Shown here: positions 195 through 9,019 of the stretch, piece after piece
Position numbering within the stretch: position 1 is the first letter of the stretch
How the letters are laid out: each line of letters begins with the position of its first letter
Assembly: GCA_030652805.1 (NCBI GenBank)
Contig: JAUSPT010000029.1
Location: 1-9,019 of the forward strand
DNA length: 9,019 nt
Source: a bacterium
GTDB lineage: Bacteria; JAHJDO01
Direction: 5' to 3'
The notes under the pieces: model-generated
What the model was told of the DNA's origin: nothing
Database searches by the model: none
What the model saw: only the letters and a program-made list of their open reading frames with translations
Position numbers and translations under genes: made by a program

Positions 195-210
195 CCTGTT
201 TGAGGATAAA

Positions 211-241
211 CCTTTAAACTAGTTCTGAGAAGCTAGTAAGG
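211..241 (+). promoter_or_regulatory. PyrR-binding RNA hairpin (anti-antiterminator)
   Basis: The segment folds into CCTT (211-214) with AAGG (238-241), a 5'-side bulge TAA (215-217), and the stem ACT (218-220) with AGT (235-237). An upper stem AGTT (221-224) pairs with AGCT (231-234) and closes the hexaloop CTGAGA (225-230). The known PyrR recognition consensus is ARUCCNGNGAGGYU. Positions 221-234 match 12 of its 14 bases, and the two differences (C to U at 224, G to A at 231) are a compensatory base-pair swap. The conserved U-G pair (223/232) and the CNGNGA loop are kept. By homology, PyrR with UMP should stabilise this hairpin and favour the downstream terminator. Confidence 0.85.
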
Positions 242-273
242 AAAAGAAATATGATAAAAGAAGAGACCTTCCT
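239..273 (+). promoter_or_regulatory. Candidate antiterminator pairing
   Basis: AGGAA (239-243) overlaps the 3' strand of the PyrR hairpin and is complementary to TTCCT (269-273), the core of the terminator's 5' strand. CT (233-234) can add two pairs with AG (275-276) across a bulge. This is the mutually exclusive arrangement expected of a PyrR attenuator, but the helix is short, so the exact antiterminator fold is inferred. Confidence 0.45.
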
Positions 274-296
274 AAGTTTTTTAGGGAGGTTTTTTA
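266..296 (+). terminator. Intrinsic terminator of the pyr attenuator
   Basis: ACCTTCCTAA (266-275) pairs with TTAGGGAGGT (281-290), giving 10 bp with one G-U and a 5-nt loop, followed directly by TTTTTATTTA. It lies after the PyrR hairpin and before the pyrR ribosome binding site, as in known pyr leader attenuators. Read-through would be expected when UMP is low. Confidence 0.88.
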
Positions 297-333
297 TTTA
301 TGTAAATGAGCTTTTGTGATTGGAGGAATGAAT

Positions 334-4404: not shown

Positions 4405-5030
4405 GAACAAAAATTTTCATCTTATTGTTTCTACAAGTTACTGCGCTTGCTTATTGTGAGGTCAATTTGGTTCCAAATGGTGATTTTGAGAACGGACGGC
4501 TTATGCCTGCTCATTGGGGATCTAATGCGAGAAAGGATTCTACAGTCCAGGTATATGAAAGTGCAAAAGGCAAAGTAATAGAAGACAAAAATCTCCTGTG
4601 GAATAAGACTGAATCGCCTACGGGTAGATGCGTAGAATTCAGACTTAACGAGCCAGCAAAGCAATGGACTTCAATCGCTGCAACAAGCGGAATGGAGTAT
4701 GAAAGCGAATATATTCCTTGCGCATATAACCAGAAATATAAGCTCAGTATAGATATTAAAAGCGTAGGTATTAGTGGAAAGGAAAACGGCCCCAAGGTTA
4801 TTGTGTTTGTAAAAGCGTACGGGTATGATAAGAAAAAGATGAAATCCTTTGAGGTGTATCGTGCTCCTATGCATTGTTACCCTGAAAACCCCGGAGATTG
4901 GAGTACATGCTCAAGAACATTCAAAATTAAAGTATCAACTGCTCAGAAAATGAAGGTAGTTGTGTATGCATACTGGCCAAAAGGTGTTGTGTATTTTGAT
5001 AATGTAAGATTGATAGAGATCAACGAATGA
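4401..5030 (+). CDS. Secreted protein with a carbohydrate-binding-like beta-sandwich domain
   Basis: The 209-aa product starts with a Sec-type signal peptide: a basic MRTK, a hydrophobic stretch to about residue 17, and a possible cleavage near ALAYC-EVN. C19 is preceded by Tyr, so a lipoprotein site is doubtful. The mature part opens with NLVPNGDFENG (22-32) and a nearby Trp. It ends with VVYFDNVRLIEI (about 196-207). These are the hallmark first and last strands of CBM4/9-type jelly-roll, galactose-binding-like domains, which suggests a single ligand-binding module with no catalytic domain. It overlaps the transporter gene and pyrK by 4 nt each. The start has no obvious ribosome binding site and probably depends on coupling. 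The ligand is unknown; it might be an extracytoplasmic partner of the transporter. Confidence 0.75.
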   Translation: MRTKIFILLFLQVTALAYCEVNLVPNGDFENGRLMPAHWGSNARKDSTVQVYESAKGKVIEDKNLLWNKTESPTGRCVEFRLNEPAKQWTSIAATSGMEYESEYIPCAYNQKYKLSIDIKSVGISGKENGPKVIVFVKAYGYDKKKMKSFEVYRAPMHCYPENPGDWSTCSRTFKIKVSTAQKMKVVVYAYWPKGVVYFDNVRLIEINE

Positions 5031-5848
5031 AAATTTTTAATGTCAAAAAAGAAATAATAGAAAACAAAAAAGTCTCTTCCAATTGTTATAGAATGACATT
5101 CGAGTCAAAAGAGATAGCTTGCAGAGTAAAACCAGGACAATTTCTGCATATAAAATGCTCGGATACATATGATCCCTTATTAAGAAGACCCATCAGTGTT
5201 CATAGTATAGAAAACAATATTATTGGAATTCTTTATAAAGTAATTGGAAGAGGAACAGGATTATTATCTAAGAAGACCTCAGGAGATCCCATAGATGTTA
5301 TAGGTCCATTAGGCAATGGTTTTGATTACCAATTAGTTTCCAATTGCCAATTGCCAATTCTTGTTGGGGGAGGTATAGGAATTGCCCCCTTATATTTTCT
5401 TGCTCAGAGACTTGTTGAGAGAGGCTCAAATATAACCGTCCTTATTGGTGCGAGTGATAAATGCAACATTCTCTGCATAGATGAGCTTAAAAAATTGGAT
5501 TGCAAAGTGAAAGTATCTACAGATGATGGAAGTTTTGGTCTTAGAGGCACAGTTATAGAACTGCTAAAAAAAGAAATCTCTTCTACAAATTCAAAATTAA
5601 AATTATTCGTCTGCGGACCTGTCCCTATGCTGAAACAGGTTAATCAATTAGTTTCAAAGGATAATGTTTCCTCTCAGGTCTCATTAGAAAGGCAAATGGC
5701 GTGTGGTGTTGGAGCGTGTATGGGATGCAGTATAAAAATCCGAAATCCGAAATCCGAAATCCGAAAAAATAAGATGTTTGATTATAAGCGGGTTTGTAAA
5801 GACGGTCCTGTTTTTGATATTAAAGAAGTGGTTTGGGAGGATATATGA
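5027..5848 (+). CDS. pyrK: Dihydroorotate dehydrogenase B, electron transfer subunit PyrK
   Basis: PyrK carries FAD and a [2Fe-2S] cluster and passes electrons from PyrD to NAD+. At 273 aa it is slightly longer than usual. The FAD-binding motif RRPISVHS is at 53-60, with GRGTGLLS at 74-81 and GPLGNGF at 93-99. The NAD-binding motif VGGGIGIAPL is at 113-122, with FVCGPVPM at 194-201. The cluster ligands are C226, C231, C234 and C257. The gap between the last two is 22 residues, against about 11-15 as I recall for the family. The excess coincides with a tandem AAATCCG array at 5736-5763. A second heptamer array (CCAATTG) sits just before the NAD motif. Both keep the frame open, so the protein is probably functional. 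It overlaps the pyrD start (ATGA). Confidence 0.94.
   Translation: MKIFNVKKEIIENKKVSSNCYRMTFESKEIACRVKPGQFLHIKCSDTYDPLLRRPISVHSIENNIIGILYKVIGRGTGLLSKKTSGDPIDVIGPLGNGFDYQLVSNCQLPILVGGGIGIAPLYFLAQRLVERGSNITVLIGASDKCNILCIDELKKLDCKVKVSTDDGSFGLRGTVIELLKKEISSTNSKLKLFVCGPVPMLKQVNQLVSKDNVSSQVSLERQMACGVGACMGCSIKIRNPKSEIRKNKMFDYKRVCKDGPVFDIKEVVWEDI
5340..5360 (+). repeat. Tandem heptanucleotide repeat CCAATTG x3 inside pyrK
   Basis: Copies are at 5340-5346, 5347-5353 and 5354-5360; the last has C instead of G. They encode part of SNCQLPI immediately before the conserved VGGGIG NAD-binding motif. Partial sequence flanking the array (CCAATTAG at 5329-5336) may be a decayed fourth copy. Confidence 0.85.
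5736..5763 (+). repeat. Tandem heptanucleotide repeat AAATCCG x4 inside pyrK
   Basis: Four exact, adjacent 7-bp copies (5736-5742, 5743-5749, 5750-5756, 5757-5763) encode the linker KIRNPKSEIRK between the third and fourth Fe-S cysteines. No frame of the repeat contains a stop codon. Gain or loss of one copy would shift the frame and remove the last cluster cysteine. Confidence 0.95.
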
Positions 5849-6753
5849 GACAGTTAAGTCTTGATATAAACATTGCTGGAATAAAGATGAAAAATCCAAT
5901 AATAACAGCTTCTGGCACATTCGGATATGGCTTGGAGTATTCACAACTAATAGATATAAAAAAATTTGGAGCAATTGTTACAAAGACTATAACACTGGAA
6001 CCAAGGATTGGTAATCCACAACCTAGAATTGTGGAGGTAGTTGGTGGTATGCTGAATTCAATAGGACTTCAGAATCCAGGAGCTAAAGTTTTTATTGAAG
6101 AAAAGCTACCAAAGCTAAAAGAGTATGGTGTGCCAATTATAGCAAATATTTCAGGCAGCAAGGAGGCAGAGTTTGTCAAACTTGCTGATCTATTTAAAGA
6201 TATTGGATTATCAGGTCTAGAGCTAAACATTTCCTGCCCAAATGTGGAACATGCAGGACTATTTGCCCAAGATGCAGATACAACTTATAAACTTGTTAGA
6301 AAGGTAAGAAAAGTTACAAGTTTGCCATTGATTGTTAAACTTACTCCTAATGTTACAGATATTACACTAATTGCCAGAGCGGCAGAAGACGGGGGCGCAG
6401 ATGCAATATCCTTAATCAATACTCTAATAGGCATGAGTATAGATATTCAGACAAAAAGGCCTAAGCTGGCAAATGTCATTGGAGGGCTGTCAGGCCCTGC
6501 GGTTAAACCAGTAGCATTAAGAATGGTCTATGAAGTATCTAAAAAAGTACGTATTCCAGTAATTGGGATGGGGGGAATAATGACTTCAGACGATGCTATT
6601 GAATTTTTACTTACTGGGGCAAGTGCAGTTGCTATTGGCACAGCAAACTTTGTTAATCCTAATACTTGTTGTGAGATTATAGAGGGCATTAAGACCTATA
6701 TGAGAGACAACAAGTTCAATAGAATGTTAGATATTATAGGACAACTTAGATGA
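5845..6753 (+). CDS. pyrD: Dihydroorotate dehydrogenase B, catalytic subunit PyrD (class 1B)
   Basis: This FMN enzyme oxidises dihydroorotate to orotate, in a complex with PyrK. From ATG 5845 it has 302 aa, the usual size. The N-terminal NPIITASGTFGYG is at 17-29, the substrate loop NSIGLQNPG at 71-79, and the catalytic cysteine C131 lies in LELNISCPNVEH. A cysteine base is the mark of class 1 enzymes. VKLTPNVTDI is near 168-177. The FMN-phosphate region includes GGLSGPAVKP, IGMGGI and AIGTANF. I chose ATG 5845 because it overlaps the pyrK stop (ATGA) and follows GGGAGG (5835-5840), although the 4-nt spacing is short. An in-frame TTG at 5833 would add four residues but lies at the ribosome binding site. 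Confidence 0.96.
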   Translation: MRQLSLDINIAGIKMKNPIITASGTFGYGLEYSQLIDIKKFGAIVTKTITLEPRIGNPQPRIVEVVGGMLNSIGLQNPGAKVFIEEKLPKLKEYGVPIIANISGSKEAEFVKLADLFKDIGLSGLELNISCPNVEHAGLFAQDADTTYKLVRKVRKVTSLPLIVKLTPNVTDITLIARAAEDGGADAISLINTLIGMSIDIQTKRPKLANVIGGLSGPAVKPVALRMVYEVSKKVRIPVIGMGGIMTSDDAIEFLLTGASAVAIGTANFVNPNTCCEIIEGIKTYMRDNKFNRMLDIIGQLR

Positions 6754-7643: not shown

Positions 7644-8180
7644 ATGGAAATTACAGAAGTAAAAGTCAGACTAAGGGATAGAGAAGGAAATAAATTAAAA
7701 GCGTACGCAACTGTTACTTTTGACGATTCTTTTGTTGTGAGAGACTTAAAAATTATTGATGGAAGAAAAGGATTGTTTGTAGCAATGCCTTCTCGGCAGG
7801 TAAGAGAAGCATGTCCCAACTGCCATCATCGCAATGCTCTCAGAAGCAAATTTTGTAATCAGTGCGGCAAGGCTCTCGAATTTCAGAGTGTTCCAAGAAA
7901 AGAAGGAGAGGATAATAGATTAGATGAGCACAGAGATGTGGCGCATCCAATAACTACAGAAGCCAGAGATTATCTGCAAAAAAAGGTATTAGAAGCCTAC
8001 GAGGTAGAAAGGGCAGAATTGCCTCAGGAGGTTAAACCCGAGCCTGGGATTGAACAGCCTGTAAGTACTGAACCTGGTGCTGAGCAATCGTCAGAACACG
8101 TTGAACAGCAGTCCGAAGATACTCCTGAGCAATCACCAGAAATTGAGCTTAATACTGATCAAATAGAAAAACCTGAATAG
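7644..8180 (+). CDS. spoVG: SpoVG-family regulator with a zinc-ribbon insertion and acidic tail
   Basis: SpoVG proteins are small nucleic-acid-binding regulators, about 85-100 aa in Firmicutes. This one has 178 aa. Residues 1-50 match the SpoVG N-terminal half (EITEVKVRL, then DDSFVVRDLKIIDG and KGLFVAMPSR). The family's next segment, DVAHPI, appears only at 98-103, followed by a helix to about 123. Between the halves sits an insertion with four cysteines, C57, C60, C71 and C74 (CX2CX10CX2C), a zinc ribbon. The C-terminal 125-178 is rich in Glu, Pro and Gln, includes two EPGxEQ copies (133-138, 143-148) and looks disordered. A good ribosome binding site (AAGGAGAG, 7629-7636) precedes the ATG by about 9 nt. 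The ispE-spoVG order is also seen, with small variations, in Firmicutes. Confidence 0.88.
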   Translation: MEITEVKVRLRDREGNKLKAYATVTFDDSFVVRDLKIIDGRKGLFVAMPSRQVREACPNCHHRNALRSKFCNQCGKALEFQSVPRKEGEDNRLDEHRDVAHPITTEARDYLQKKVLEAYEVERAELPQEVKPEPGIEQPVSTEPGAEQSSEHVEQQSEDTPEQSPEIELNTDQIEKPE

Positions 8181-8809: not shown

Positions 8810-8842
8810 GTGTAATACACATATGATAATGTCCTATTTGGC
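8810..8842 (+). repeat. Direct repeat, copy 1 of 2 (33 nt)
   Basis: This segment matches 8878-8910 with a single mismatch (T8822 versus A8890), and the offset is 68 bp. It begins with the near-palindrome GTGTAATACAC and ends TGTCCTATTTGGC. Confidence 0.9.
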
Positions 8843-8877
8843 TTTTTATTAAAAAATCCTTGACATTAATTTTTGTT

Positions 8878-8910
8878 GTGTAATACACAAATGATAATGT
8901 CCTATTTGGC
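8878..8910 (+). repeat. Direct repeat, copy 2 of 2 (33 nt), likely element end
   Basis: This is the second copy of the repeat at 8810-8842. A third, shorter relative (AAATGTCCTAATTT, 8919-8932) follows. The TGTCCTA core therefore occurs three times in direct orientation just upstream of the transposase, as expected for iterated transposase-binding sites at an insertion-sequence end. Confidence 0.85.
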
Positions 8911-8969
8911 ACATTTAGAAATGTCCTAATTTAAAGAGGCTATAATACCCGATTTAATAGGAGGGTATT

Positions 8970-9019
8970 ATGGCAGAAAGGGATATTATCATGGCAAGTC
9001 AAAGAGAGCTAAAGCGGTT
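8970..9019 (+). CDS. N-terminus of a transposase, possibly ISNCY family (runs off the right edge)
   Basis: ATG 8970 opens a frame reading MAERDIIMASQRELKR to the edge, preceded by AGGAGGG (8959-8965) with 4-nt spacing. A second in-frame ATG is at 8991, better spaced for a longer leader but without its own ribosome binding site. The pattern of a short acidic start followed by IMASQRELKR resembles the N-terminus of ISNCY-type transposases as I remember them, where a helix-turn-helix would follow. Support comes from the repeats immediately upstream and a TATAAT at 8941-8946. Only 16 residues are visible, so the family call is tentative. Confidence 0.5.
   Translation, partial: MAERDIIMASQRELKR

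Follow-up and report, generated by a model that had tools for sequence, protein, structure and literature searches.

A four-unit heptanucleotide array in pyrK of an uncultured bacterium as a probable in-frame expansion tolerated in a protein loop

The window, i.e., the whole 9,019-nucleotide stretch analysed here, is one entire contig (G000:C29) of a 2.0-Mb draft genome. The gene order along it, assigned mostly by sequence, is PyrR leader, pyrR, pyrB, pyrC, a transporter gene, a hypothetical gene, pyrK, and pyrD, followed on the same contig by an ispE-like gene, a SpoVG-domain gene, and two tRNA genes. The features discussed below are located as follows:

207..299: PyrR-binding RNA leader upstream of pyrR (Rfam RF00515, 56.3 bits)
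5027..5848, + strand: pyrK, electron-transfer subunit of dihydroorotate dehydrogenase B (Pfam, PDB matches, AlphaFold model)
5340..5359, + strand: CCAATTG x 2.9, third heptanucleotide array in pyrK, residues NCQLPI (Tandem Repeats Finder, alignment)
5587..5598, + strand: unexpanded seed AAATTCAAAATT, second pyrK site (alignment of relatives)
5702..5728, + strand: codons of C226, C231, and C234, the first three [2Fe-2S] cysteines (alignment of 29 PyrK)
5736..5766, + strand: (AAATCCG)4 + AAA, perfect heptanucleotide array (Tandem Repeats Finder, frame test, relatives)
5795..5797, + strand: codon of C257, the fourth cysteine, downstream of the array (alignment, frame test)
5842..6753 (ORF start 5833 or 5845), + strand: pyrD, catalytic subunit, directly downstream of pyrK (Pfam DHO_dh, 3.4e-84)

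In the distal part of the window, the SpoVG domain (7644-8180) is fused with a zinc ribbon and an acidic tail, and positions 8810-9019 hold a near-perfect 33-bp direct repeat GTGTAATACACAWATGATAATGTCCTATTTGGC, with copies 68 bp apart, directly before an ORF start. This ORF, which begins MAERDIIMASQRELKR, resembles the N-terminus of an IS transposase and runs off the contig end.

The product of pyrK has the four cluster cysteines and the FAD/NAD-binding fold of a dihydroorotate dehydrogenase B subunit, with pyrD adjoining. It matches Pfam DHODB_Fe-S_bind (1.3e-14) and NAD_binding_1, as well as the PDB sequences 5ksw_B (E 1.9e-41) and 1ep1_B; the AlphaFold model (mean pLDDT 91.9) superimposes on these 2 structures with Z of 33.4 and 32.5, respectively. 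C226, C231, C234, and C257 are invariant among 29 aligned PyrK sequences. According to the model, strands 235-239 and 251-255 flank the array region, which forms a loop with linker pLDDT of about 74. PyrK of Lactococcus lactis (1ep1_B, 5ksw_B) shares the fold and the four cysteines (Z 32-33); its loop between cysteines 3 and 4, however, is shorter, the difference being due to the array. An earlier sequence-only reading of the locus correctly gave the spacing between C234 and C257 as 22 residues. Its contrast with a shorter usual spacing needs qualifying: cysteines 3 and 4 lie 7-26 residues apart across 44 PyrK-like sequences, and the value found here is long, yet within the natural range. Since the loop tolerates 7-26 residues, the enzyme with a heptapeptide added to this hairpin most likely still works.

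Tandem Repeats Finder reports AAATCCG x 4.4 with 100% matches at 5736-5766, in agreement with the four perfect copies originally noticed between the Fe-S cysteines. The array is in frame within the 273-aa ORF (5027-5848), separates the third and fourth cysteines of the [2Fe-2S] site, and encodes K-I-R-N-P-K-S-E-I-R-K. The net insertion amounts to three of the four units, i.e., 21 nt or 7 residues. The initial estimate of about 10 added residues is thus too high, because the one-unit version, obtained in silico by removing three units (CSIKIRKNKMFDYKRVC), already has 15 residues between the cysteines, which is an ordinary spacing. As 7 is not a multiple of 3, the unit length shifts the frame inside the ORF. 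When pyrK is read in silico with 0-8 units, C257 and the C-terminus are retained with 1, 4, and 7 units and lost with 0, 2, 3, 5, 6, and 8. The earlier statement that every change of copy number removes C257 therefore holds only off multiples of three: three-unit changes are frame-neutral, so not all copy-number changes would break pyrK.

The insert consists of perfect head-to-tail 7-bp units beyond chance, as in heptanucleotide tandem repeats of the LSSR/STRR kind. A direct reading of AAATCCG and CGGATTT finds no GGG, which sets the array apart from G-quadruplex repeats, and the insert in pyrK is a simple tandem array with no discrete palindromic element. Searching the source genome yields 20 matches to AAATCCGAAATCCG and 0 for the reversed-pattern control, hence the AAATCCG arrays in this genome are not due to chance. 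As for the CCAATTG x 2.9 array of pyrK, it is common to G000-G003 and diverged in G004 according to the alignment; its 14-mer CCAATTGCCAATTG occurs once in the G000 genome.

The set compared comprises five genomes, G000-G004 (G000 being the source), and searches at genus, family, class, and phylum rank all yield these five; all genomes compared are draft MAGs or assemblies, most or all of them from short reads. G001, whose pyrK product is 91% identical, has the same array as G000. The linker of G002 holds another repeat, made of CAAAACT/CAAAAGG units (24 residues), and in that of G003 (21 residues) CAAAACT-like units surround the small palindrome CCCGAAAGCCTTCGGG. G004 lacks any insert, its linker being CMGCIIKVKNGYKRVC (11 residues). 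The linker is thus lineage-specific, and the presence of different repeats in different species indicates that this loop is a place that takes up repeats. The exact one-unit precursor of pyrK is found in none of G001-G004, and the 11-residue linker of G004 implies that some other change also occurred there. At the second pyrK site, 21 nt are added in G001 (AAATTCA units) and in G003 (AAACTCA units), and none in G000, G002, and G004. At L018 (G003 pyrK), L210 (G002 cobT), and L119 (G002), heptamer arrays likewise contain or adjoin small in-frame palindromes such as CCCGAAAGCCTTCGGG or CCCGATAATGTCGGG; sister species have plain heptamer arrays at these 3 sites.

Orthologues of other genes show the empty, seed, and expanded states side by side. 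In murB, a single GAAATCCGAAA is present in G003 and G004, while G001 has exactly 21 nt more of the same unit, and G000 carries 21 additional nt of a different unit, AAAATCA, at the same place. Similarly, a radical-SAM gene has ACTCACCACT / ACTCAAAACT in G001 and G004 and ACTCATC x4 in G000, again a gain of 21 nt. An exact +21-nt step from 1 to 4 units is therefore directly observed twice in murB, once in the radical-SAM gene, and twice at the second pyrK site. The empty sites of the relatives, which can be read equally directly, are single-copy seeds of 10-12 bp, containing a 3-5-bp direct repeat with 7-bp spacing. Among in-frame indels of at least 4 residues in 462 orthologue pairs, a tally in which some events are counted twice or more, a 7-bp periodic run accompanies 8 of the 11 seven-residue indels vs 7 of the 63 of other sizes. 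The insertion in ispG is 27 nt rather than 21, and some other, N-terminal sites differ by 6, 8, or 10 residues.

Genome-wide statements rely on 757 kb of sampled stretches from two genomes (360 kb of G000 and 397 kb of G001) together with searches. Period 7 makes up 25 of 77 Tandem Repeats Finder rows in the G000 sample, against 0 for a Markov control. This sample has almost no exact arrays of periods 2-6, and the picture in G001 matches. These arrays have several unit sequences and are dispersed over many loci. By a crude gene prediction, which overestimates the number of genes, 29 of the 37 arrays sampled fall inside ORFs, and translations place arrays within recognisable conserved genes or at their N-termini; the mainly intergenic location that is typical of, though not strictly defining for, described heptanucleotide repeats is not seen here. 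Every one of the 14 perfect AAATCCG arrays in the genus consists of exactly four units; they are located in, among others, pyrK, ispG, cobT, murB, an xerC-like N-terminus, a gene for a membrane protein, and the termini of a dispersed element (gene names besides pyrK and pyrD come from reading the translations, not from family searches). Perfect period-7 arrays reach a maximum of 33-35 bp in the 757 kb, and 16 of 18 have a matching overhang of at least 3 bp, vs 6% expected for a random seed.

Two further observations concern individual loci. An orthologous membrane protein contains, at the same position and length, ACAGACG x4.7 in G000 and AAAATCA x4.7 in G001 (L102:18136-18168 and L166:9768-9800). 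Prepilin-like genes standing in a row (L106:10600-12310, L094:17830-18320) have different heptamer arrays in their leader peptides, namely TTTTGAC, ATAGACC, CAGAAGG, AATTTTG, and TAGACCA.

The dispersed element is about 135 bp long and has 37, 41, and 30 matches in G000, G001, and G002, respectively, 3 in G003, and 1 weak match in G004. Its copies (e.g., G000:C54:12605-12738; L316, L320, L324) have sharp ends, AAATCCGAAATCCGAATATCGAAATCC on the left and CGTGCTTCGTGCTTCGAATTT on the right. The left end is built of four AAATCCG-like units, and three copies have an exact (AAATCCG)4 end. Neither plasmid nor phage collections contain a match to the element. It resembles a non-autonomous mobile repeat whose ends consist of heptamers, and it may be among the sources of the AAATCCG unit.

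Outside the genus, AAATCCG x3 or more is present in 8 of 380 sampled genomes and 3 of 34 named genomes, in three or four units, and the reversed control is never present in the same genomes. One WOR-3 MAG and one Stahlbacteria MAG carry (AAATCCG)4 in frame, which bears out the earlier association of the linker peptide with repeat-rich genomes of uncultured lineages. In IMG/VR, x3 patterns of AAATCCG, ACTCATC, ACAGACG, and TAGACCA give 24, 34, 1, and 0 matches, respectively. Two shuffled controls give 7 and 0, so a heptamer vocabulary common to several phyla is not established. A strict general limit of four units is rejected, since ACTCATC arrays on viral contigs reach 7 units and those of a control heptamer 13.

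Taken at the level of pyrK, the array is probably a fixed in-frame expansion of a heptanucleotide seed, tolerated in a loop. The seed would be a short stretch containing the same 3-5 bp twice, offset by 7 bp (type XYZnnnnXYZ), and slippage or template switching during replication may have amplified it to four units, adding a heptapeptide to the surface hairpin that joins the third and fourth cysteines of PyrK, where length seems to be tolerated. The same process would have operated throughout the genus, affecting many genes and returning to the same loops. The matching overhang of 16/18 perfect arrays fits growth from a 3-5-bp direct-repeat seed. As 7 is not a multiple of 3, only a gain of three units (21 nt, 7 residues) spares the frame and the fourth cysteine, which explains the four units of coding arrays. 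An intermediate with two or three units would put normally essential genes such as murB out of frame, from which we infer that three units were added at once or that only such steps survived. Chance seeds alone, however, are insufficient, as many arrays share the single unit AAATCCG, in other phyla too.

The first reading left the choice between tolerated repeat invasion and a slip-strand switch, and it is the former that agrees with the lineage-specific linker and with a genome full of heptanucleotide arrays. Under the switch, gain or loss of units would turn PyrK off and reversibly halt dihydroorotate oxidation; the unit length is indeed indivisible by three, and C257 is lost with most changes of copy number. 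Unit number, however, is observed to be equal in the two species sharing the pyrK array, in four sharing that of ispG (four units each), and in two sharing that of cobT, although 7.6%, 21.6%, and 4.2% of flanking sites vary, respectively. No array length variants are seen at shared sites in any relative at species level, and the arrays are stable on the between-species time scale. In addition, a gene of pyrimidine synthesis is an atypical contingency locus, and other arrays occupy unrelated housekeeping genes. The switch is not supported, given equal copy number between species, and appears very unlikely. In another reading, a short-k de Bruijn assembler collapsed longer arrays to 27-35 bp, so that the true number is not four; the 33-35-bp maximum of perfect arrays is close to the collapse expected at a k-mer of about 27. 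Such a collapse, however, would randomise the frame, whereas the arrays of pyrK, ispG, cobT, murB, and two other genes are all in frame, as are ORF arrays in two other phyla. Decayed imperfect arrays, which are unable to collapse, also have about four units (an HdrA-like site in four species), gains relative to empty sites are exactly 21 nt, and (AAATCCG)4 is present in unrelated assemblies; altogether, an artefact is very hard to credit.

A ready-made insertion, in which the 31 bp are the remnant left end of the dispersed element (30-41 copies in G000, G001, and G002), would account for the recurrence of one unit. It is in line with the element's four AAATCCG-like starting units, the three exact (AAATCCG)4 ends, and the lack of AAATCCG arrays in the outgroup G004, which is nearly free of the element. 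Yet murB grew from a native single unit, ACTCATC, AAAATCA, and AAATTCA behave alike without being the element's end, and no element sequence follows the array in pyrK, which makes this origin improbable. As for a longer loop selected for its own sake, e.g., tuning the cluster or contacts with PyrD, conservation of the pyrK array in two species speaks for it, as does the ispG array, which has 0/31 variable sites in four species, while only 0.8% of flanking windows of that size match. An adaptive role is nevertheless highly unlikely, given that the linkers of the relatives at this site have 11, 21, and 24 residues of unrelated sequence and that the same peptide is found in unrelated proteins.

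In-frame expansion of a seed can also be cast in a broader form, in which a saltatory process converts a 10-12-bp seed into a four-unit array in one event, inside and outside genes and in several phyla, perhaps by a dedicated or error-prone replication step. This broader form is a doubtful, if conceivable, extension. If true, the four-unit preference would reflect how arrays are made, rather than G-quadruplexes or reading frame only, and these lineages would acquire seven-residue protein insertions by that route. For coding arrays, reading frame suffices to explain the preference.

Literature searches on heptapeptide or heptanucleotide coding expansions returned nothing specific. Orthologues in the empty, seed, and expanded states provide direct before-and-after pairs. 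These reveal a 21-nt step in genes that are normally essential and allow selection on the reading frame to be told apart from structural causes such as G-quadruplexes. They address the dominance of 7-bp repeats in many bacteria and the frequent occurrence of four units, and pose the question of why repeats grow in three-unit steps. The arrays also give rise to seven-residue loop insertions, for which those who annotate genes or study protein structures of uncultured lineages should be prepared.

Among known systems, the STRR sequences of cyanobacteria are heptanucleotide repeats of like kind. Rickettsia palindromic elements are in-frame repeats in housekeeping proteins, probably at tolerant surface sites; they are, however, defined palindromic elements, whereas here a simple repeat gains 21 nt locally. 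Bacterial heptanucleotide long simple sequence repeats, in the account of Mrazek 2007 cited in PMC4679880 and PMC4692102, share several traits with the present arrays: 7-bp units outnumber all other classes, loci are numerous and dispersed, perfect arrays are short, and the taxa are scattered. Polymerase slippage favouring 7 bp has been proposed for them. As cited there, those repeats are mainly intergenic, in contrast to the arrays described here, which lie mostly in ORFs, including housekeeping genes, with +21-nt in-frame gains. Contingency loci that phase-vary through tetra- or heptanucleotide tracts, such as those of Haemophilus (PMC2651432, PMC8262952), likewise have units that are not a multiple of three, in or near coding sequence; the array in pyrK, however, is short, equal between species, and in a biosynthetic gene. 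TAACTGA repeats occur in marine Beggiatoaceae, cyanobacteria, and Bacteroidetes (PMC4679880). They are alike in that one heptamer appears in distant lineages, with 2-6 copies in the Guaymas genome and occasional heptapeptides in ORFs. Unlike the arrays of this genus, which sit within domains and have no regulatory position, TAACTGA repeats are mostly found just upstream of start codons, or at the protein periphery if in ORFs, and reach 43 copies in some species. Finally, GGGAATC repeats of Xanthomonas and Nostoc share the clear preference for four units, which has been linked to G-quadruplexes (PMC4692102). Those repeats, however, are mostly non-coding, and since AAATCCG, ACTCATC, TTTTGAC, and other units of the present arrays contain no G-tracts, the G-quadruplex explanation is inapplicable here.
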